In this document: piece after piece, positions 1,809 to 24,855 of the stretch
Position numbering within the stretch: position 1 is the first letter of the stretch
How the letters are laid out: each line of letters begins with the position of its first letter
IMG/VR virus record: IMGVR_UViG_3300025645_000426
Span: 1-24,983 of that record
Strand: one strand, 5' to 3'
DNA: 24,983 nucleotides
Source: a virus
The notes under the pieces: generated by a model
Database searches by the model: none
What the model was told of the DNA's origin: nothing
What the model saw: the letters and a program-made list of their open reading frames with translations, nothing else
Translations under genes and position numbers: made by a program

Positions 1809-2215
1809 TGAAAGCTAAAGCAAGTAGTTATTATCGCTCAGGCTTAGAAGGTAAAGTAGCTAAACTACTACCTAGAAACATGTTTAAGTATGAGCCTTTT
1901 ACAATACCCTATACAACATATCGAAACTATACACCAGACTTCGTAGCTGGTGAGTTCGATGAGTATATTGTAGAAGTAAAAGGTTTCTTCAGGGTGGGGG
2001 ACACGCAAAAGTACAAAGCAATACGCGACTCTCTACCTGAGAATCAAGAGTTAATATTCATGTTAGCAGATAAGAATAAGAAAGTACGAAAAGGAGCTAA
2101 GATGACTATGGGACAGTGGTGTGCTAAAGAGAAAATCACTGGCTTTGACCTTAAAGAGATGGACGCATTTTTGGAGTATTGTACTGATGACCGTACCGAA
2201 GTACAGAGAAGTTAA
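1808..2215 (+). CDS. Endonuclease I, Holliday-junction resolvase (T7 gp3 type)
   Basis: A 135-residue resolvase that cuts branched DNA. In T7 it resolves junctions before packaging and breaks down host DNA. RSGLEGKVAKLL matches the T7 gp3 N-terminal helix, and the catalytic set is complete: E14, E29, D44 (YTPDF), E56 and K58 (VEVKG), with E14-E29 spacing of 15 as in T7 (E20-E35). I chose the ATG at 1808, which overlaps the exonuclease stop as TAATG and has GGGAGAG upstream; an ATG five codons earlier (1793) sits inside that ribosome binding site. The 3' end overlaps the next gene by 29 bases. Confidence 0.93.
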   Translation: MKAKASSYYRSGLEGKVAKLLPRNMFKYEPFTIPYTTYRNYTPDFVAGEFDEYIVEVKGFFRVGDTQKYKAIRDSLPENQELIFMLADKNKKVRKGAKMTMGQWCAKEKITGFDLKEMDAFLEYCTDDRTEVQRS

Positions 2216-2723
2216 TCTAAAGAGACGTTACGGATTAACTCTAGCGGATTATGACGCGCATGTAGAAAGCCAAGACGGTAAGTGTATACTATGTAGTTCA
2301 GAGACTAATCCACTACATGTAGACCACTGCCATGAAACTAATGAGATACGAGGACTACTCTGCCTTAACTGCAATACAGGACTAGGTAAGTTTAAGGAGA
2401 GTGCAGAGCTACTCGGTAAAGCTAAGGATTACATAATGACAGCAGATGTAAAGAAAGATAGAGCAGAAACAATAGTAGGAGGTGTATACGATAGAGGAGT
2501 ACATTACCGATATCAGTACAAAGGAGTTAAACTAGACCCTTTCCGTATAGCTAAGATATACAATTGCAATGGTGTACAGCTAACGATACTAAAGAAAGTA
2601 TTAGTAGTAGGCGAAAGAGGACATAAGAGTGCTGTAGAGGACTACAGAGACATTATTAACGCCGCTAGTAGAGCTATAGAGATGCTAGAGGAAGACTTAC
2701 TAGACACAGAAGGAGATTCATAA
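2187..2723 (+). CDS. Endonuclease VII domain fused to DUF3310 (gp1.7-like) domain
   Basis: A 178-residue two-domain protein. Residues about 10-83 are a recombination endonuclease VII (HNH) domain: zinc ligands C33/C36 and C59/C62, HVDHCHET with D46 at the place of the T4 catalytic Asp, and N63 after the second Cys pair. Residues about 104-170 look like DUF3310, the family of the T7 gp1.7 nucleotide kinase and phage SaV1: VHY at its start, a middle helix, then GERGHKSAVEDYRD and a helix AIEMLEED. The first domain would resolve or nick branched DNA; the second may act on nucleotides. I chose the ATG at 2187 because upstream residues are a shadow of endonuclease I. The DUF3310 match is by eye. 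Confidence 0.8.
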   Translation: MTVPKYREVNLKRRYGLTLADYDAHVESQDGKCILCSSETNPLHVDHCHETNEIRGLLCLNCNTGLGKFKESAELLGKAKDYIMTADVKKDRAETIVGGVYDRGVHYRYQYKGVKLDPFRIAKIYNCNGVQLTILKKVLVVGERGHKSAVEDYRDIINAASRAIEMLEEDLLDTEGDS

Positions 2724-3494: not shown

Positions 3495-4451
3495 GTGGAA
3501 TTACCAAGATTACTACAACCGAAAGATACATATACTATTGATTATCCACAAGCTATTGCCTACGCTGAAGCACAGCAGGATATCTTCTGGACTGCCAATG
3601 AAATTGATATGGAGAAAGACCTACATGGTTTAAAGACAGACCTTACCAAAGCAGAGTACACAGCAGTTACAACAGCTCTTAAACTGTTTACTTTATACGA
3701 GCTTAAGGTAGGTGATTATTGGCTAGAGTATGTATTTAAGACCTTTAAAAGACCTGACATTCAGCGTATGGCTAGTGTGTTTGGATTCTTTGAGTTAAAT
3801 GTACATGCTCCATTCTATAATAAAGTAAATGAGGTCTTAGGGCTTAACACTGATGAGTTCTATGAATCTTATAAAGAGAACAAAGTACTGTCTGGGCGTA
3901 TGGAGTGGCTAGATAGTGCCTTCACTAAGGATACAGCTTGGAACGTAGCGTTAGCTAGTATTGTAGAGGGTGCTATCTTATATAGTAACTTTGCCTTCTT
4001 CAAGCACTTCCAAGCTACTGGTAAGAATAAGTTAGTAAACTTGTGTGCAGGTATCAACTTCAGTGTACGTGATGAGAACCTCCACAGTGAGGCAGGAGCG
4101 TGGTTATTTAGGACACTGGTAGCAGAGCAAGAGTTAGATAGAAATATCTACTTAGAGAGGCTTACAGAGGCTTGTAGCACTATCTATGAGCATGAAGCTG
4201 GTATCATAGACCTACTCTTCAAAGAAGGTAACATAAAAGGTATTACACCTGAGCAGATGAAGCATTTCGTACAAGCTAGATTAGACTTGTGTATGAACCA
4301 ATTAGGGTTTGACAAAGTATATAATCCAAGCTATGACCCTATTAGTAAGTGGTTCTATACCAATATCAATAGCGGTCAATTACACGACTTCTTTCATAAG
4401 CAGGGTAATAATTATAATCGAAATTGGGTAGAGGGGAGGTTTAAATGGTGA
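3495..4451 (+). CDS. nrdB: Ribonucleotide reductase, class I beta (radical) subunit
   Basis: A 318-residue ferritin-like R2 subunit that generates the radical used by the alpha subunit to make dNTPs. Visible ligands are E158 (VEGAILYSNF), E194 and H197 (RDENLH) in the second half, and E69 (LYELKVGDYW), E100 and H104 (FELNVH) in the first. Two points differ from textbook R2: the first carboxylate appears to be Glu rather than Asp, and the usual ExxH reads ExxxH. The radical position is therefore Phe107 or Tyr108, depending on the alignment anchor. The start is GTG at 3495 with AGAGGAAT upstream; the next ATG would remove the N-terminal region. It overlaps nrdA by seven bases. Confidence 0.93.
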   Translation: MELPRLLQPKDTYTIDYPQAIAYAEAQQDIFWTANEIDMEKDLHGLKTDLTKAEYTAVTTALKLFTLYELKVGDYWLEYVFKTFKRPDIQRMASVFGFFELNVHAPFYNKVNEVLGLNTDEFYESYKENKVLSGRMEWLDSAFTKDTAWNVALASIVEGAILYSNFAFFKHFQATGKNKLVNLCAGINFSVRDENLHSEAGAWLFRTLVAEQELDRNIYLERLTEACSTIYEHEAGIIDLLFKEGNIKGITPEQMKHFVQARLDLCMNQLGFDKVYNPSYDPISKWFYTNINSGQLHDFFHKQGNNYNRNWVEGRFKW

Positions 4452-6145
4452 GTAGTATCTATGATGAACTAAGTAAAGAACGTAAAGAGTTACAAACAAT
4501 CGGTAAGCTACCATCTTGGACAACGACTCCAGCATGGCAGTTACTAAAGGAGAAATATACAACTGATGAATACCCAGACCTATACTCTATCTACAAACGA
4601 ATCAGTAGTAGTGCCGCCAGACACATGGGTGCGGATAAAGAACACTATGAACGAGTATTCTTCAATCTACTCTGGAGAGGGTGGCTTGCTTGTTCAACCC
4701 CTGTCATCGCAAACATGGGTACAACCAGAGGGTGTCCCGTATCATGTTCAGGTAACTTTGTAGGAGATAGCGTATATGAATTCTATGAGTCCCAAAAAGA
4801 GATTGCAGTTCTTACAAAGAATGGCTTTGGAACTAGTTCTTACCTTGGAAACATTAGAGGACGAGGAAGACCTATCAGTAGTGGAGGGACAGCTTCAGGT
4901 GTGCTACCAGTCCTCAAAGATTTTATCCAACTATCTAGGGACGTATCACAGGGTAATACACGGAGAGGTGCTTGGGCAGGTTATATCGAAATCGAACACG
5001 AAGACTTCTGGGAAATCATTACCTACCTCCAAAACAACCCAGACGACTTCAACCTCGGATGGATTATCTCTGACGAATACATCGCCAAGCTCAATTCGGG
5101 CGATGGAGAAGCTCTTGAGCGATACCAAAGAGCCTTAAGAGTTAAGATGCTCACTGGTAAAGGTTACTTCTTCTTTACTGATAGAGTACATGACCAACAG
5201 CCACAACTGTATAAAGACCAGAACCTACGATGTACAGCAAGTCAGTTATGTACAGAGATTACATTACACAGTGATGAGTTCCATACCTATACGTGTGTAT
5301 TAAGTAGTATGAACCTTAGCTTGTATGATGAATGGAAAGATACAGATGCAGTACAGAATAGTATCATCTTCCTAGACTGTGTAGCTGAAGAGTTTATTCA
5401 GATGGGTAAGGGTATTAAGGGCTTAGAGAAAGCAGTACGCTTCACAGAGAAGTCAAGAGCATTAGGATTAGGTGCATTAGGTTATCATACCTATCTTCAA
5501 TCTAAGTCTATTCCTTTTGAGTCTTTTGAGGCACATCAGCTTAACAAGGATATATTCAAACATATCCGTAAAGAAGCTAACATAGCCACTAAGAAGTTAG
5601 CTAAGATACTTGGTGAACCAGAATGGTGTAAGGGTTATGGGGTGCGTAATACACATCTACTAGCTATTGCTCCTAATACATCTAGTGCTTTAGTGTGTGG
5701 TAGTGTATCTCAGGGTATTGAACCAGTGTATAAGAACGCCTTTGTTCAAGGTAGTGCTGGTGGGGAGATTAACCGAGTTAACAGTGAACTGATTAAAGTA
5801 TTGGAGGCTTATGGACAATATAATGATGAGACTATTAGCAGTATCATTAATAATGGGGGTAGCGTTAGCCATCTGGGATATCTTACCGAGTTAGAGAAAG
5901 ATGTATTCAAGACAGCCTTTGAGATTAATCAAGAGTCTATCATACGTCTAGCGAGTGCAAGACAAAAGTATATCTGTCAAGCACAATCTATTAATCTATT
6001 CTTTCCTGCGGATGAAAGTGAAGAAGTAATTAGTGCTGTACACAAGTTAGCCTTTAATGATAAGTACATTAAGTCATTGTACTACATTAGAAGTGAAGCA
6101 GGTGTTCAGGGGTCTACGGGTGAGTGTGTAGCGTGTGAAGGCTAA
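4445..6145 (+). CDS. nrdA: Ribonucleotide reductase, class I alpha (catalytic) subunit
   Basis: A 566-residue catalytic subunit, shorter than bacterial NrdA (about 760 aa) and without an N-terminal ATP-cone, so overall allosteric inhibition by dATP is probably absent. Visible: STPVIANMG, C101 (PVSCSG) and C284 (TYTCVLSSMNL) as the redox pair; C269 and E271 (QLCTEI) in the active site; Y546-Y547 (SLYYIRS) for radical transfer; and C561/C564 at the C-terminus for rereduction. The position equivalent to E. coli Asn437 (NLCLE) is Gln267. The gene has a strong ribosome binding site (GGGGAGG) and overlaps nrdB, so the subunits are co-translated. It provides deoxynucleotides for phage replication. 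Confidence 0.94.
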   Translation: MVSSIYDELSKERKELQTIGKLPSWTTTPAWQLLKEKYTTDEYPDLYSIYKRISSSAARHMGADKEHYERVFFNLLWRGWLACSTPVIANMGTTRGCPVSCSGNFVGDSVYEFYESQKEIAVLTKNGFGTSSYLGNIRGRGRPISSGGTASGVLPVLKDFIQLSRDVSQGNTRRGAWAGYIEIEHEDFWEIITYLQNNPDDFNLGWIISDEYIAKLNSGDGEALERYQRALRVKMLTGKGYFFFTDRVHDQQPQLYKDQNLRCTASQLCTEITLHSDEFHTYTCVLSSMNLSLYDEWKDTDAVQNSIIFLDCVAEEFIQMGKGIKGLEKAVRFTEKSRALGLGALGYHTYLQSKSIPFESFEAHQLNKDIFKHIRKEANIATKKLAKILGEPEWCKGYGVRNTHLLAIAPNTSSALVCGSVSQGIEPVYKNAFVQGSAGGEINRVNSELIKVLEAYGQYNDETISSIINNGGSVSHLGYLTELEKDVFKTAFEINQESIIRLASARQKYICQAQSINLFFPADESEEVISAVHKLAFNDKYIKSLYYIRSEAGVQGSTGECVACEG

Positions 6146-6154
6146 GGAGGTAGA

Positions 6155-6325
6155 ATGGCGGCTACGAATGATATAACAGGAGACAAACTAATCTCTAGAG
6201 CTTCTACAAAGGTATACAATGAAAACTATGAACGTATCTTTGGTAAGACTAAGTTAGAAGAAAAACTAGAACGAGAGAGATTAGAAGAGGAAAAAGCTGA
6301 GAAATGTAAAGAAGAATCCCTATAG
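6155..6325 (+). CDS. Small charged protein of unknown function (56 aa)
   Basis: A 56-residue protein directly after nrdA with AAGGAGG as ribosome binding site. The N-terminus reads [15 protein letters not shown], then a linker with [11 protein letters not shown], then a highly charged helix ([17 protein letters not shown]) likely to form a coiled coil. Small proteins with NDITGDKL and ..YRDNYDRIF-like motifs are common in tailed phages, from memory, without known function. The TAG stop lies within the -35 box of the following promoter. Confidence 0.75.
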
Positions 6326-6351
6326 ACTTTTTAGCTTATTTGTGGTATAAT
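6323..6351 (+). promoter_or_regulatory. Sigma70-like promoter of the PqqA-like gene
   Basis: A -35 box TAGACT (6323-6328) and a -10 box TATAAT (6346-6351) with a 17-base spacer; TGG precedes the -10, giving an extended -10. Eleven bases from the end of the spacer through the -10 (TGTGGTATAAT) differ by one base from the promoter at 594-622. Expected transcription start is near 6358, about 36 bases before the PqqA-like ATG. It gives the peptide gene its own transcription. Confidence 0.8.
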
Positions 6352-6393
6352 AACAACAGTGTAATAAAGCACTATAACAAGGAGAATACAATC

Positions 6394-6465
6394 ATGTGGA
6401 CTAAACCAGAATACAACGATATGCGTTTTGGCTTTGAAGTTACAATGTATATTTGTAATCGCTAA
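6394..6465 (+). CDS. pqqA: PqqA-like coenzyme PQQ precursor peptide (23 aa)
   Basis: A 23-codon ORF whose product matches PqqA, the ribosomal peptide from which pyrroloquinoline quinone is built. It begins MWTKPEY, then D9 and R11, and contains FGFEVTMY with E15 and Y19, the Glu-x-x-x-Tyr pair that radical-SAM enzyme PqqE joins while PqqD presents the peptide; it ends NR. Length and spacing equal those of gammaproteobacterial PqqA. AAGGAG lies nine bases before the ATG; the gene has its own promoter upstream and a terminator 14 bases downstream, forming a transcript of roughly 155 bases. No other pqq gene is visible, so host PqqB-E would be needed. The assignment is by eye against the family consensus from memory, which is distinctive. 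Confidence 0.9.
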
Positions 6466-6479
6466 GCTCTAGAAACAAC

Positions 6480-6515
6480 AAAGCCCTACCTAGTGAGAAC
6501 TAAGTAGGGCTTTTT
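6480..6515. terminator. Bidirectional rho-independent terminator between converging arms
   Basis: A 10-bp stem AAAGCCCTAC (6480-6489) / GTAGGGCTTT (6504-6513) is extended by TAGT/ACTA closing a GAGA tetraloop, with one C-A mismatch. TTTTT follows on the plus strand (6511-6515). Read on the minus strand it continues into TTTGTTGTTT, so it can also end the leftward late transcript, whose last stop is at 6528. It insulates two converging transcription units. Confidence 0.9.
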
Positions 6516-6527
6516 ATTGCCTGCGAT

Positions 6528-9254
6528 TTACTGCATAGTGGACTGACCAGCCCTTTGCATTTGTTGTTGACTATTCTGTCTTAAAAAGTCTAAGTCATCT
6601 TCTAATCCCAGCTCTGAAGCTGAAGGGTTATTACCGTTATTAACAGCAGTTACTGCGCGAGAACTAGTTAATGCTGTAGCTGGTATAAAGTTACCATAGA
6701 GTTTATTAAACTTCCTAATATTCTCAGGCGTAGCTTCTAAGAGTAAAGCCTTTAACTTATTAGGGTCTTTCATAGCATCTACTACAATGTTATTAGCACC
6801 ATCTACTGTTAGTTTACCTAATATCTCATCATATTGTCTAGCGAACATACCAGAGGTTCTTAGAGAAGCCCCTGAAGTACCTGCACCAGCCTGAGCACCT
6901 AGACGAGATGCGTACGTACCACCAACTAAACTTATAATCCTAGAAGGCGCATCAGTAACTACACCTTTAGCCGCTTGAGTAGCATTCCGTGTCTCTATCT
7001 TAGCTAACTCTAGACCTATTTGGTCAATCAAGCCTAGCTCTTCCTTAGTAAATAACTTATTAGCCGCTTCTCTAGTATCACGCGCTAGTCGTTGAAACTT
7101 AACACCAGATAACGCATTAAACGCCTGGGTTGGTTCAGCATGTCTTATTAAGAACTCACCATACGCAGACTTAAGACCATCTAGAGCCGCGCCGCTACTA
7201 TCTTGCTTAACAGTGCTAACAAGTGAAGACATAATCCTACCTTGTTCAGCATCGTTTCTAGCGGCTAAGATACGCTTCATAGCCTCATCAGGACTACCAT
7301 CTAGGTACAGTGAAGTAACTGACTTATTCTTAATGTACTTAGACATGTTATTACCAACTACAGAACCGAACATCTCATCCACTAAGCCTTGTTGGTCTAT
7401 ACTCGATGTAATACCAGCAGAGAACTCAGGAAACTCATTGAGCACTGTTTCATGTTGTTTTAAGAAGCGTCTAGCGTGTTCTACGTTAAAAGCACCTGAG
7501 CCTTTCTCTGTAGTTACTTCCTTGAATAGAGCTTTCATATAGTTCTCTACTTGAGGCATAGCTTCTGGTGAAGCCTGCTTAAGCTGAGCAATACTCTTGC
7601 GTACGTTTTCCTTAGAAGCGCCTAACAAGAAGTCTGCTGTGCCTTCATCAGTAGAAGAAGCGCCTCCTGTACGTTCATAACCAAGTAACTTACCTACTCT
7701 ACCTTGTGTAAACTTAGTATTAAGCTCTCTAGAGTACGTTACAGCATCTGCATACTCAGGAGATACCTCAGCTAGACTATCATAAATCTCTGCATTTAAC
7801 TCAGAAAGCACTCTAATCTTGTTTCGGTTAGGAGCATCTAGAGAGCGTTCTTTAGCTATGTCGTCACCTAGTCTACTTCTTAAGTCTTTTAAGACAGCTA
7901 CAGTAGGCTTCTTCATGGCTATACCTTTCTTGAATATACCGTCTTTATCAACCCTACCTACTAAATTAGTAACATAAGCTGGAATATCATCAGGGTCTGA
8001 AGCTATAGTCCTACCTCTAAGAATACCCTCTAGTGTTGTACCTACACGGTCTCCGCTTACAGCACCATCATTAGACAACTTACCCCATAGAAGCTTCTCT
8101 GTCTTACGCGCTTCAGCTACTGACTCTTCTACTGTTTGTCTAATAACTCTAGAGTAATCTACTGGGCTAGCGCCTGCACCAAGACCATTAATAGTATCTT
8201 GAGCTTTAAACACTGCCTTACTACGTAGAGCTTCTAAGTAGTCTACAGTTGCTTTAGAGCTACCTTTACCAACTAACAATGCCTTAGCTCTGTTGATTGA
8301 AACATCAGTAGCATCTGCAATTAACTTAGCGAACTCTGGGTCTTTGTTCATAGCCGCTTTCAGTAATGAATTAATACCTACGTCTTTAGTACGAGTAACA
8401 GGGTCTAGCTGTAGAATGGTATCATCCATTAAGTTATTAAGAGCCTCACTAGTAGATTGAGACTTCTTCATAATAGTCTTCTCAGCTCGAACAGTAGCAC
8501 CGTTCTTAGCAAACATGTTCTTAAGATTACCTGTTAGTATTGAAACATCTGTAACACGCTTAACAATCTCTGTAGCCAATGAAGGAGTTATACCACCAAT
8601 AAGCTCGCCGAATAACTCAGCATTAGCATTATCTGGGTATAACTCAGACATTACTTGTCCACCTACAGCAGATGTAACTACGCCAGCAGTCTCTAAAGCC
8701 GCTGTAGTTGTTGGTTTAGAAGCCGCAGTTACAAGTGCCTTCTGAAAAGAGTTTAAATCATCAAATGCTTTAGTAGCTAATTTACTACCAGCGACTTGGA
8801 AGCCACCAGCAGGCAATATAGTTTCTCCGCCAATACGGGCTATCTTACCTGCTAAATCAGTAGGTCTTGAGCCTTCCGCAGGAAACTGTGTACCTAGAGA
8901 GTTAAGACCTGCTCTAATGCTCTTAGAAGAGCCTAAAGGGTCGAAGTTCTCATCTACTAAGCCTGTCATTCTCATTATACCAGTGGCTAAATCTACAGGA
9001 AAGCCTAACATGGAAGTTAATCCATAGTTAAACTCACCTAGTAAACGTCCAGTTTCCTTACCAGCGGCACTATCTACTTGCTGTGTAGGCGCAGGCGTTT
9101 CCTGAGCTGGTACTTGCTGAGCAGGCGCAGGAGTCTGTTGAGCAGGCGCAGGAGTCTGTTGAGCAGGCGCAGGAGTCTGTTGAGCAGGGACAGCAGTAGG
9201 CTGAGGAGCACCTTGTTGTTTAAGAAAAGCTAAGTTTTCTTCTAGAGTTGGCAT
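6528..9254 (-). CDS. Large internal virion / DNA-ejection protein (gp16-like position)
   Basis: A 908-residue protein, the last gene of the late operon. Residues about 15-60 are a Pro/Gln/Ala-rich linker with three exact PAPAQQT repeats; the rest is mostly helical with glycine-rich stretches (for example LVGGTYASRLGAQAGAGTSGAS) that could insert into membranes. The end is Gln-rich (RQNSQQQMQRAGQS). Size, helical character, position after two other ejection-type genes and distance from the tail genes match the large inner-core protein of T7-like phages, which forms the conduit across the envelope during DNA ejection. I see no lysozyme-like motif. The start overlaps the upstream stop as TAATG. 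The exact function is inferred. Confidence 0.7.
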   Translation of the reverse strand: MPTLEENLAFLKQQGAPQPTAVPAQQTPAPAQQTPAPAQQTPAPAQQVPAQETPAPTQQVDSAAGKETGRLLGEFNYGLTSMLGFPVDLATGIMRMTGLVDENFDPLGSSKSIRAGLNSLGTQFPAEGSRPTDLAGKIARIGGETILPAGGFQVAGSKLATKAFDDLNSFQKALVTAASKPTTTAALETAGVVTSAVGGQVMSELYPDNANAELFGELIGGITPSLATEIVKRVTDVSILTGNLKNMFAKNGATVRAEKTIMKKSQSTSEALNNLMDDTILQLDPVTRTKDVGINSLLKAAMNKDPEFAKLIADATDVSINRAKALLVGKGSSKATVDYLEALRSKAVFKAQDTINGLGAGASPVDYSRVIRQTVEESVAEARKTEKLLWGKLSNDGAVSGDRVGTTLEGILRGRTIASDPDDIPAYVTNLVGRVDKDGIFKKGIAMKKPTVAVLKDLRSRLGDDIAKERSLDAPNRNKIRVLSELNAEIYDSLAEVSPEYADAVTYSRELNTKFTQGRVGKLLGYERTGGASSTDEGTADFLLGASKENVRKSIAQLKQASPEAMPQVENYMKALFKEVTTEKGSGAFNVEHARRFLKQHETVLNEFPEFSAGITSSIDQQGLVDEMFGSVVGNNMSKYIKNKSVTSLYLDGSPDEAMKRILAARNDAEQGRIMSSLVSTVKQDSSGAALDGLKSAYGEFLIRHAEPTQAFNALSGVKFQRLARDTREAANKLFTKEELGLIDQIGLELAKIETRNATQAAKGVVTDAPSRIISLVGGTYASRLGAQAGAGTSGASLRTSGMFARQYDEILGKLTVDGANNIVVDAMKDPNKLKALLLEATPENIRKFNKLYGNFIPATALTSSRAVTAVNNGNNPSASELGLEDDLDFLRQNSQQQMQRAGQSTMQ
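9121..9183 (-). repeat. Three exact 21-bp tandem repeats
   Basis: Three identical 21-base units (plus-strand start GCAGGCGCAGGAGTCTG) run from 9121 to 9183, followed by degenerate copies on both sides. They are in frame and encode PAPAQQT repeats near the N-terminus of the large ejection protein. Exact identity at wobble positions points to recent slippage. Confidence 0.95.
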
Positions 9255-17194: not shown

Positions 17195-18636
17195 TAGTTT
17201 GTAACCCCTCTACCATATTTAAGGTCTTGGTCAACCCACGCTTCCCAAGCATAAGATACCGCACTAGTATTATTTGTTGTTGAACGGAACTTAACGCCAT
17301 TACTTAAAAAGTCAATTACCGCAGATGGGTGCGTGTAAACCGTTGTATTATTTACTACGAAATGCGTTGGCTTATACCCTAGATAAATGAATGTACCATT
17401 TGCAGAGCCATTACCAGTATATGTACCTTGTGAATAGTCGTTCTCTGTTCCAGCACTAACAAACACATTATAAGGTGTAGCTATTGCAGGTAGGTTCTTA
17501 GATGATAGTGCTAGAAAACCTGTTGGTGGCGTGTATGTCCATGAGGATTCAGGTATAAACAGCTCAACTGTACCGCCCAGCGCCCCGCTATTTGGACAAT
17601 ATATTGCAAAACTAGTAGCCACAGAACTTATGTCTATAACCCCTTGTGCCACGTTATTTACATAATATTCCATCTCTAAGTCGTCAACATTAAGCGCCAA
17701 TCCTACGATGTCACCATTGTTAAAACTAGAAGTGTATGCGGTTTGCACATTATTAATTAGTTTAGTGCCGGTTCTGAATATAGTGGCTGAACCACCTGTT
17801 GCTACAGCGTTTATACTTAGTTCAGAGTTGGCTACCCCAGCTACTCGATATTCATCAAAATTTAGTGTAGGTATTTGCTCAAAGTAATACTTACCAGAAG
17901 ACACTGCCATAGTGCCTCTTGTTTTACCCCCAGATGAAGTTGAAAATGTGTACCTTGTACCAGCTCTAGTAAAAGCAATGTTTGAGTTAGATGCGTCCAA
18001 TAGATTACAAATACAATGATTATCAGTAGGAGTATCAGTTGATTGCGTTACGCCTGAGTTAGTAAAGTCATTACCGTTACCACTTGAATCCTCACCTAGA
18101 CTTGCACCGTTCTGGAAGTTCAGATAGAAACCGTTAGTACCGTAAGTACCTGCGTAGGCTTTAGCTACCCATTGACCTGTTATTGGGTCTGTTTTTGCGA
18201 AGTCTGCGCTATCTTTTAATGACTCTACAAGATGAATTTCTGATATATACCCACTAAAATAACTTGTTCCTGTCCTGCCTATATCGGGGTTAGTTAAGGC
18301 AGATGTAGTAACTGCACCAAGATACACACCATTAACCTCTAGACCGTTATTACTTACACAGATATGATAAAAATTAGCTACATCACGAAATACAGCGGTA
18401 GTTGTCAGCCCAAAAGCAGTTATGGTATCGTTTGCATTAAATTGTAAAGCCCCCTCAACTATACCCATAACCGCGCCGAGGTTAGACCTCTTCAATAATA
18501 CTGAGATAGTTATTGTTGCGCCTGTAGTCAATGTTTTACTTAAGTAATCACTCTGCTCTGCCGCAAACGCACCACTATTAGGTACGTCGTAAGCTACACC
18601 ACGATTCCTTCCACTGATTAATCCATTAGGTATCAT
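17194..18636 (-). CDS. Receptor-binding tail fibre/spike with LamG- and SPRY-like domains
   Basis: A 480-residue protein with two sugar-binding-type beta-sandwich regions. Residues about 20-200 resemble a concanavalin/LamG fold (SDYLSKTLTTGATITISVLLKR, YHICVSNNGLEVNGVYLG, YFSGYISEIHLVES, then DSSGNGNDFTNSGVT). Residues about 235-370 look like a SPRY domain (GKYYFEQI, FNNGDIVGLALNVDDLEMEYYVNN, VELFIPESSWTYTPPTGF). The C-terminal 100 residues may form a further lectin-like tip (GYKPTHFVVNN, VSYAWEAWVD). Such combinations occur in phage tip proteins that recognise surface glycans. The start overlaps the previous fibre gene as ATGA, suggesting that the two assemble together. Confidence 0.75.
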   Translation of the reverse strand: MIPNGLISGRNRGVAYDVPNSGAFAAEQSDYLSKTLTTGATITISVLLKRSNLGAVMGIVEGALQFNANDTITAFGLTTTAVFRDVANFYHICVSNNGLEVNGVYLGAVTTSALTNPDIGRTGTSYFSGYISEIHLVESLKDSADFAKTDPITGQWVAKAYAGTYGTNGFYLNFQNGASLGEDSSGNGNDFTNSGVTQSTDTPTDNHCICNLLDASNSNIAFTRAGTRYTFSTSSGGKTRGTMAVSSGKYYFEQIPTLNFDEYRVAGVANSELSINAVATGGSATIFRTGTKLINNVQTAYTSSFNNGDIVGLALNVDDLEMEYYVNNVAQGVIDISSVATSFAIYCPNSGALGGTVELFIPESSWTYTPPTGFLALSSKNLPAIATPYNVFVSAGTENDYSQGTYTGNGSANGTFIYLGYKPTHFVVNNTTVYTHPSAVIDFLSNGVKFRSTTNNTSAVSYAWEAWVDQDLKYGRGVTN

Positions 18637-19697
18637 GCGCCCACCACCTCAACAATCTCAACACTTGTGATTAATGCTGTATGTTTAACAACACGACACT
18701 CATACTTAATTGTAGTTAGTAAATCAGGGATAGTGCCTACTGGATAACAACCTGCACCGAGCGTTACGGTGTATGTTCCTGCCCCTGTGATGTTAAGTAG
18801 AATCACACAACCACCGTAAGCGCCATCAGCAGGTTCATTGATAGTGACTGTTCCAGTTACTGCACGGTATTTAAGCCATTCAGTAGTAAGGTCAGGCGTG
18901 ATAGTGTTTGATACGAGTGTTTCAATATCTGTTGTGAAGCCTACTGATAGATTATCTGAAGCATTGGCTTTTAGTATGTCAGCATTAGCCGCCTCTGCGC
19001 CAATATCTGCCAGAACTTGAGCAGGAGTACGAAACTCTATACCTGTTTCGCCTGCATTTACTCTAGGATAGTTAATAGATTGACCAGCTAAACTATCGAA
19101 GGAAGGAATTGTTAAAGCACTAGCCGCCGCCGCCTCTGCTGAAGCTAACGCATTAGACTCTGAAGTACTTGCATTACTAGCTGAAGTAGCCGCGTTAGAA
19201 GCCGCTGTGCTAGCTGTAGAGGCATCCGAAGCTGTTGCTAGTGCATCTGCCGCAGTAAGCAATACATCGGCGTGTGTGAGTACTACATCGGCGTTTGTAG
19301 TCACTACATCAGCATTAGTTAATAATACATCAGCCGCTGTAGCTATAGCATCCTCCGCAGTAGCGTCTGCATCTAAGCCTGTTGCTAATAAGTTAGCCGC
19401 TGTAGTTGCTACGTCTGCGTTTGTAAGAACTACATCTGCATGTGTTAGGACTACATCAGCATGGGTAAGAACCACATCTGCCGCTGTAGCGAGTGCGTCT
19501 GCCGCTGTTAAAAGAGCACTAGACGCTGAATTTGATTCAGATATACTAGCCGCAGAAGCACTTGCGCTTGCCGCAGTTGCGCTAGCCTCTGCCACACTCG
19601 CAGAAATACCAGCATCTGTTTCTAGTTGAATTATTTGATTGAGTGAGATAGAATCGGTAGCTGAAGGAGCGCCACCTTGACCGCGATAGATAGACAT
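18633..19697 (-). CDS. Tail fibre with long heptad-repeat shaft
   Basis: A 354-residue protein. The N-terminus MSIYRGQGGAP probably docks to the tail. Residues about 33-195 are a low-complexity Ala/Ser/Thr/Asp shaft; within it about 64-158 are 7-residue repeats of the form TxADVVL / THADVVL, consistent with a trimeric coiled-coil stalk. After about 198 comes SFDSLAGQSINYPRVNAGETGIEFRTP, common in phage fibres, then a beta-rich end. It is the first gene after the capsid terminator and is followed by the LamG/SPRY protein and its likely chaperone. Role: extended stalk linking tail and receptor-binding tip. The start has AGAGGT upstream. Confidence 0.82.
   Translation of the reverse strand: MSIYRGQGGAPSATDSISLNQIIQLETDAGISASVAEASATAASASASAASISESNSASSALLTAADALATAADVVLTHADVVLTHADVVLTNADVATTAANLLATGLDADATAEDAIATAADVLLTNADVVTTNADVVLTHADVLLTAADALATASDASTASTAASNAATSASNASTSESNALASAEAAAASALTIPSFDSLAGQSINYPRVNAGETGIEFRTPAQVLADIGAEAANADILKANASDNLSVGFTTDIETLVSNTITPDLTTEWLKYRAVTGTVTINEPADGAYGGCVILLNITGAGTYTVTLGAGCYPVGTIPDLLTTIKYECRVVKHTALITSVEIVEVVGA
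19224..19508 (-). repeat. Degenerate 21-bp tandem repeats coding fibre heptads
   Basis: About thirteen in-frame 21-base units encode seven-residue repeats (TAADALA, TAADVVL, THADVVL, TNADV..). Units differ mainly at wobble positions, unlike the exact repeats at 9121-9183, so the array is older and kept by selection on the protein. Confidence 0.8.
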
Positions 19698-24444: not shown

Positions 24445-24855
24445 TTACTTGCTGTACTCTTTTAAGTACGCGGCTGCTGAACTACAGAACTCTGAATTAT
24501 CTTGTAATAGCCCTATAGCTAGATTACATTTATCGCATAAAAGACTTCTTACTTCGCCTGTATCATGGTCATGGTCTACAACTAGCTTGCTATGTCTAGT
24601 ATATTTAGAGTGAATGTTGCAAATAGCGCACCTACCCTCTTGCTTTTTACTCATTTCTTCGTATTCTTTAAAGCTAATACCGTAAGAGTACCTATATTGT
24701 ATATCTCTTACTTTTTCTTTATTTTCTTTTCTATACTTTTTACGAGCTTCTGCGGAGCATTGCTTACACTCGTTTCTGTATGCTTCTCTGTCTTTTCTGT
24801 ATAGAAAGTTATCTATTGATTTTTCTTCACTGCACTTAAAGCAATTCTTTTTCAC
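24445..24855 (-). CDS. Free-standing endonuclease VII / HNH protein
   Basis: A 136-residue nuclease. An N-terminal zinc-binding part has C5/C8 and C30/C33, followed by a basic linker (ARKKYRKENKEKVRD) that may bind DNA. The catalytic domain has C76/C79 (CAIC), VVDHDHDTG with D94 as the likely metal ligand, LLCDKC (C107/C110) and N111. This is a complete endonuclease VII core, more complete than the fused copy at 2.2 kb. The start is GTG at 24855 with AGGA upstream. It separates two virion genes, a typical location for a homing-type HNH endonuclease, though junction resolution is also possible. Confidence 0.82.
   Translation of the reverse strand: MKKNCFKCSEEKSIDNFLYRKDREAYRNECKQCSAEARKKYRKENKEKVRDIQYRYSYGISFKEYEEMSKKQEGRCAICNIHSKYTRHSKLVVDHDHDTGEVRSLLCDKCNLAIGLLQDNSEFCSSAAAYLKEYSK

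Follow-up and report, generated by a model that had tools for sequence, protein, structure and literature searches.

In the synthesis of PQQ, PqqE, together with PqqD, crosslinks a Glu and a Tyr of the precursor peptide PqqA through their side chains, which become PQQ, and one PqqA peptide is consumed per cofactor. Cyanophage psbA is a known case of a phage providing a short-lived, rapidly turned-over part of its host's energy metabolism; phage pqqA would likewise supply a high-turnover component, but psbA encodes a working protein subunit, whereas PqqA is a precursor consumed one per cofactor. The closest described system is the contig VP_266 from Lake Baikal, derived from a T4-like virus of Methylophilaceae, on which PqqA is encoded together with methanol dehydrogenase (PMC7678222, 2020). 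The gene pqqA has also been listed among viral genes in reservoir sediment (PMC13188868, 2026). A sequence-only reading of the DNA analyzed here had stated that no phage PqqA system was described, which is wrong in view of the 2020 report on VP_266. On the bacterial side, Methylophilaceae carry multi-copy pqqA with a single pqqBCDE (PMC4109929), and the multiple pqqA genes of Methylovorus respond to different stimuli, as cited in PMC6520949.

The window, that is, the whole stretch of 24,983 bases of one IMG/VR virus record (probably an incomplete genome, a 25-kb fragment), carries a pqqA gene of its own. The window and VP_266 share a phage-borne PqqA, a predicted methylotroph host, and the same proposed role, but the window represents a podovirus, its peptide is of the Methylophaga type, its gene is arranged as a transcription unit of its own, and the record showed no dehydrogenase. 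The orphan pqqA genes of Methylophaga and Methylophilaceae hosts (PMC4109929) specify the same peptide, several with a terminator-like hairpin right after the stop codon, but differ in being chromosomal and in having flanking DNA without evident homology to that of the phage copy, as seen in the two genomes with the identical peptide (L292 and L261, below). A stand-alone pqqA, some 23 codons long, is also present in the phages P19250A, Venkman, MEP301, MEP401/402, and Melnitz, and that of P19250A again lies at a converging junction, but these phages belong to other lineages, have Methylophilaceae hosts, and carry the gene at other genome positions. In the open-access literature searched, no description was found of how broadly pqqA occurs across unrelated methylophages, of its restriction to them, of its layout as an autonomous unit, of the invariance shown by the crosslinked Glu and Tyr, or of a likely Methylophaga phage. 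The features of the locus in the window are as follows.

4445 to 6145, plus strand: nrdA, ribonucleotide reductase large subunit, left edge of the insertion slot (phrog_84, E 1.2e-141)
6155 to 6325, plus strand: 56-aa ORF separating nrdA from pqqA, with a stop codon that overlaps the pqqA -35 box (ORF list)
6323 to 6351, plus strand: predicted sigma-70-type promoter, -35 TAGACT (6323-6328), 17-nt spacer, extended -10 TGG-TATAAT (6346-6351) (sequence motif)
6379 to 6384, plus strand: ribosome-binding site AAGGAG, 9 nt 5' of the ATG (sequence)
6394 to 6465, plus strand: pqqA, PQQ precursor peptide, 23 aa, with Glu15 and Tyr19 (translation, Pfam and TIGR02107 profiles, Methylophaga muralis match)
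6480 to 6516, plus strand: predicted intrinsic terminator, hairpin (6480-6513) and T-run
6528 to 9254, minus strand: final late-arm gene, 908 aa, right edge of the insertion slot (ORF list)

The 23-aa product of the ORF carries E15 and Y19 at the spacing for crosslinking by PqqE (ExxxY). Against the Pfam PqqA profile (PF08042), the peptide scored 44.6 bits (E 1.3e-11, cut-off 21.1), and against the TIGR02107 equivalog of NCBIfam 50.9 bits (E 8.9e-14, cut-off 20). Because both scores exceed the cut-offs, the peptide is no chance resemblance, and the ORF is, as judged by these profiles, a true PqqA. PqqE and PqqD were both absent from the window by profile search, and other pqq genes could lie beyond the fragment. 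The identification as PqqA, the location and Glu/Tyr spacing of the ORF, and the lack of a visible pqqE or pqqD in the window, all proposed by the sequence-only reading, were thus borne out.

The same holds for its proposal of a separate mini transcription unit, for which the extended -10 promoter, the AAGGAG motif, and a terminator 14 nt after the stop codon are all present. The promoter matches the consensus at 10 of 12 positions, with TG preceding the -10 box, and its score was equaled by 0.5% of shuffled upstream sequences; enrichment of the promoter consensus upstream of viral pqqA as a class was tested and none was detected, so the quality of the window promoter is not to be generalized. 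The terminator hairpin (6480-6513) has a predicted stability of -20.2 kcal/mol (z -4.45). Since GTTGTTT follows the hairpin on the minus strand, the terminator may be bidirectional, possibly serving the converging late arm as well. The Rfam scan of the window matched no family.

The gene is flanked by the rightward early arm (nrdB, nrdA, and the ORF 6155-6325, which matched no PHROG) and by the leftward late arm with its stop at 6528; among the late-arm products in the window, PHROG profiles identify a major head protein as well as a portal. As a host-like metabolic gene (68 of 72 bases) in a bona fide phage with these two proteins, pqqA is a putative auxiliary metabolic gene. By eye, two ORFs near either end of the window (2121-2723 and 24445-24855) show Cys/His patterns resembling HNH or endonuclease VII, and the protein encoded at 18633-19697, with ADVVLTHADV-type repeats, is probably a tail-fibre stalk. 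The whole window gave no match to phage records by megablast.

Among the nearest nrdA relatives (L003-L012), pqqA is absent in the DNA covered. In five of them (L007, L008, L009, L011, and L012), the nrdA stop lies in or directly next to the converging late-arm gene, leaving an empty junction, while in the remaining relatives, other small ORFs occupy the slot. On this evidence, the nrdA/late-arm junction is a variable, moron-like position, in agreement with what had been read from the window sequence, and the window pqqA has the marks of a moron, namely its own consensus-level promoter and terminator and its absence in close relatives. All 80 MCP relatives examined also lack pqqA within the DNA covered, and because neither these nor the nrdA relatives have the gene, pqqA is apparently not essential to this phage lineage. 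The expectation that the ORF would be found intact in relatives failed for the nearest nrdA relatives, but held for more than 100 other phages. Podoviruses with window-like portal or head proteins do have pqqA, at other positions and with differing peptides: with a small ORF on one side and the portal gene on the other (L148), adjoining the major head gene (L157), or upstream of the portal gene (L122 and L187). These differences suggest repeated acquisition or movement of the gene.

One genome per species was scanned for the 10-residue PqqA ending, and nearly all matches were from Methylophaga and relatives; since the pattern itself dictates the peptide ending, it is the exact match of both peptide and DNA that gives the host call its strength. 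The commonest PqqA among the Methylophaga-type matches is 23 aa long. The window peptide is identical to one of the nine PqqA copies of Methylophaga muralis (L261) and also to that of a metagenome-assembled genome of the same family, Methylophagaceae (L292). At the DNA level, the window ORF is identical to L292 at 68 of 72 positions and to L261 at 67 of 72, every difference being synonymous. Because of this identical peptide with silent DNA differences only, the host of the window virus is probably a Methylophaga-like methylotroph. No name beginning with "Methylophaga phage" is present in the NCBI taxonomy.

Nine Methylophaga-type genomes carry two to nine pqqA each; in seven of them, PqqE and PqqD each occur exactly once over cut-off, and the remaining two show neither. 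The presence of host pqqD and pqqE, to which the earlier reading had pointed as a check, was hence found in most of these genomes of the probable host group. In the family of M. muralis, pqqA was found in 47 of 57 genomes in up to nine copies, and in the family around a Methylophilaceae metagenome-assembled genome in all 60, in 1 to 12 copies; Methylophilaceae-type genomes as small as 1.3 Mb still have two or three. Many pqqA copies alongside one pqqD and one pqqE, together with the response of the Methylovorus genes to different stimuli, suggest that the dosage of PqqA precursor matters to Methylophaga and Methylophilaceae hosts. For Methylophaga nitratireducenticrescens, a c-di-GMP riboswitch is listed as flanking a pqqA gene (PMC12530212).

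Of the 50,697 phage records searched by tblastn, those with PqqA were nine isolates of methylophages (Venkman, MEP301, MEP401, MEP402, the four strains of Melnitz, and P19250A), a Manatee Spring virus, and a pair of records named for Acinetobacter. The gene is thus present in every one of the nine Methylophilales/Methylophilaceae isolates encountered; HIM624-A and MEP431-434, Methylophilales phages named in the taxonomy, appeared in no search and are outside the nine. The gene is annotated as PqqA in none of the nine, and the published descriptions of MEP301, MEP401, Venkman, and Melnitz mention no phage PQQ gene. In Melnitz, a hypothetical ORF occupies the strand opposite pqqA. Whether the query was of Methylophaga, Methylophilaceae, Klebsiella, or Pseudomonas type, the matches were confined to methylotroph phages and a single metavirome genome, apart from the two Acinetobacter records that were set aside; the queries patterned after the Klebsiella and Pseudomonas peptides added no further record. 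Both Acinetobacter records are named "Acinetobacter phage MD-2021a". The first, of 144 kb (CAKLQF020000010.1, L460), was rejected as phage evidence: its pqqA is surrounded by ppk, a radical SAM gene, pqqB, pqqC, and pqqD, and the record is evidently DNA of a chromosome mislabeled as phage; the second, of 13 kb (CAKLQH020000055.1), was set aside by the shared name.

In IMG/VR, searched with degenerate DNA patterns for pqqA, the gene was found in well over 150 contigs. The loci from three scans, including a few isolate records, gave at least 191 PqqA peptides, at least 80 of them distinct, and the true number is larger. About 133 of these peptides are of Methylophilaceae type, and 11 start with MKWE as in a methanotroph copy. 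The pqqA-bearing viral records reach 372 kb, and three stand out as being of jumbo-phage size (L343, 372 kb; L430, 356 kb; L333, 172 kb). A second Methylophaga-type phage pqqA, with a changed N-terminus (MFTQNWVTPEYSDMRF...), is located at 8773-8856 of L325, with an extended -10 sequence TGGTATAAT upstream and a terminator-like hairpin downstream. PHROGs v4 matched no PqqA family, and annotation pipelines based on PHROGs will therefore miss pqqA. As far as these searches indicate, pqqA is far commoner in phages than annotation shows.

The first DNA pattern fixes GFEVTMY and is unusable for judging conservation of the Glu and Tyr; the second was anchored on the N-terminal half. With the latter, 120 viral matches were obtained, and all 119 complete ones are 23 aa in length with Glu15 and Tyr19. 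The only incomplete case, the truncated L440, runs past the end of its contig. The pN/pS of viral pqqA was 0.026 over codons 14-19 and 0.107 over codons 14-23, and synonymous change was close to saturated (pS about 0.7). The PqqA peptide is under purifying selection across phages. An RBS-like motif was found 5' of 117 of 117 related viral pqqA genes. For 79 of 178 viral pqqA genes, a terminator-like hairpin follows within 90 nt, as against 113 of 2266 other genes of the same loci. A total of 59 among 181 viral pqqA genes are antisense to both neighbours, and 33 lie at a converging junction as in the window. PqqE over cut-off was found in none of the 50 larger pqqA-bearing viral records, some of which are fragments. 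One of the 50, G067 (L123, 72 kb), encodes a full-length PQQ methanol/alcohol dehydrogenase at 34049-35731 of the record (608 bits, TIGR03075), a pairing that recalls VP_266 from Lake Baikal.

It is quite probable that the window carries a genuine, functional, host-derived pqqA in a podovirus of a probable Methylophaga-like host, and that the gene serves as a stoichiometric precursor supply sustaining PQQ-dependent methanol dehydrogenase. This reading draws on family membership, architecture, host-like sequence, purifying selection, the absence of pqqE in phage records, the host pqqD and pqqE with many pqqA copies, and the restriction to methylotroph phages, and from these we infer the expression, processing, and metabolic benefit of the phage PqqA. 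The podovirus would have acquired pqqA from a bacterial host and retained it; additional PqqA would be produced from the phage's own promoter, bound by host PqqD and PqqE, and crosslinked between Glu15 and Tyr19; the remaining host Pqq enzymes would complete PQQ; and PQQ would keep methanol dehydrogenase loaded, maintaining carbon and electron flow while host transcription falls. Since pqqA is restricted to methylotroph phages, methanol dehydrogenase is the likely client. An increase of host PQQ supply by phage pqqA is the best reading of the single pqqD and pqqE against many pqqA, the invariant Glu and Tyr, the absence of phage pqqE, and the methylotroph-phage restriction. Against it stand the several pqqA copies that hosts already have, the lack of the gene in the nearest nrdA and MCP relatives, and the promoter consensus, which is unenriched for the class.

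Besides methanol dehydrogenase, PQQ has further dehydrogenase clients, and the peptide or PQQ might act outside methanol oxidation, in redox protection or with a different PQQ enzyme, for example; alternatively, the RNA and not the peptide might be what counts. These alternatives are unlikely, as the confinement of pqqA to methylotroph phages indicates methanol dehydrogenase, it is the peptide that is under selection, and the window has no Rfam family. A neutral passenger, recently copied from a host rich in mobile pqqA genes and of no benefit to the phage, would agree with the numerous and scattered host copies and with the close phage relatives devoid of pqqA, but is very improbable in view of the strong purifying selection at a pS of about 0.7, the intact frames and RBS in all, the enrichment of pqqA's own terminators, and the presence of pqqA in unrelated phage lineages. 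The suggestion in the sequence-only reading that the peptide ties up PqqD/PqqE, extended here to other factors that bind PqqA and to a slowing of host methylotrophy or a diversion of SAM and reductant, would fit a peptide without PqqE in the 50 larger records, but such a decoy could dispense with the crosslinked residues, which are never lost (119 of 119), the window peptide exactly equals the M. muralis copy, and G067 pairs pqqA with a PQQ dehydrogenase, making it a highly unlikely explanation.

With precursor supply as the preferred reading, a wider proposition can be put forward, tentatively: stand-alone pqqA may be a near-universal, repeatedly acquired, and overlooked gene of methylotroph phages; precursor supply, and not the Pqq enzymes, may limit PQQ in infected cells; and host-phage traffic may help to explain the scattered pqqA of the hosts. 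The blind spot in annotation is systematic, a 23-codon metabolic gene being present in nine of nine isolates and labeled PqqA in none. A large share of the methanol in oceans and lakes is processed by methylotrophs such as OM43, LD28, and Methylophaga, whose first enzyme has PQQ as its cofactor. If methylophages routinely carry the PQQ precursor, infection would act directly on one-carbon flux, and precursor dosage would be a testable control point of PQQ synthesis.
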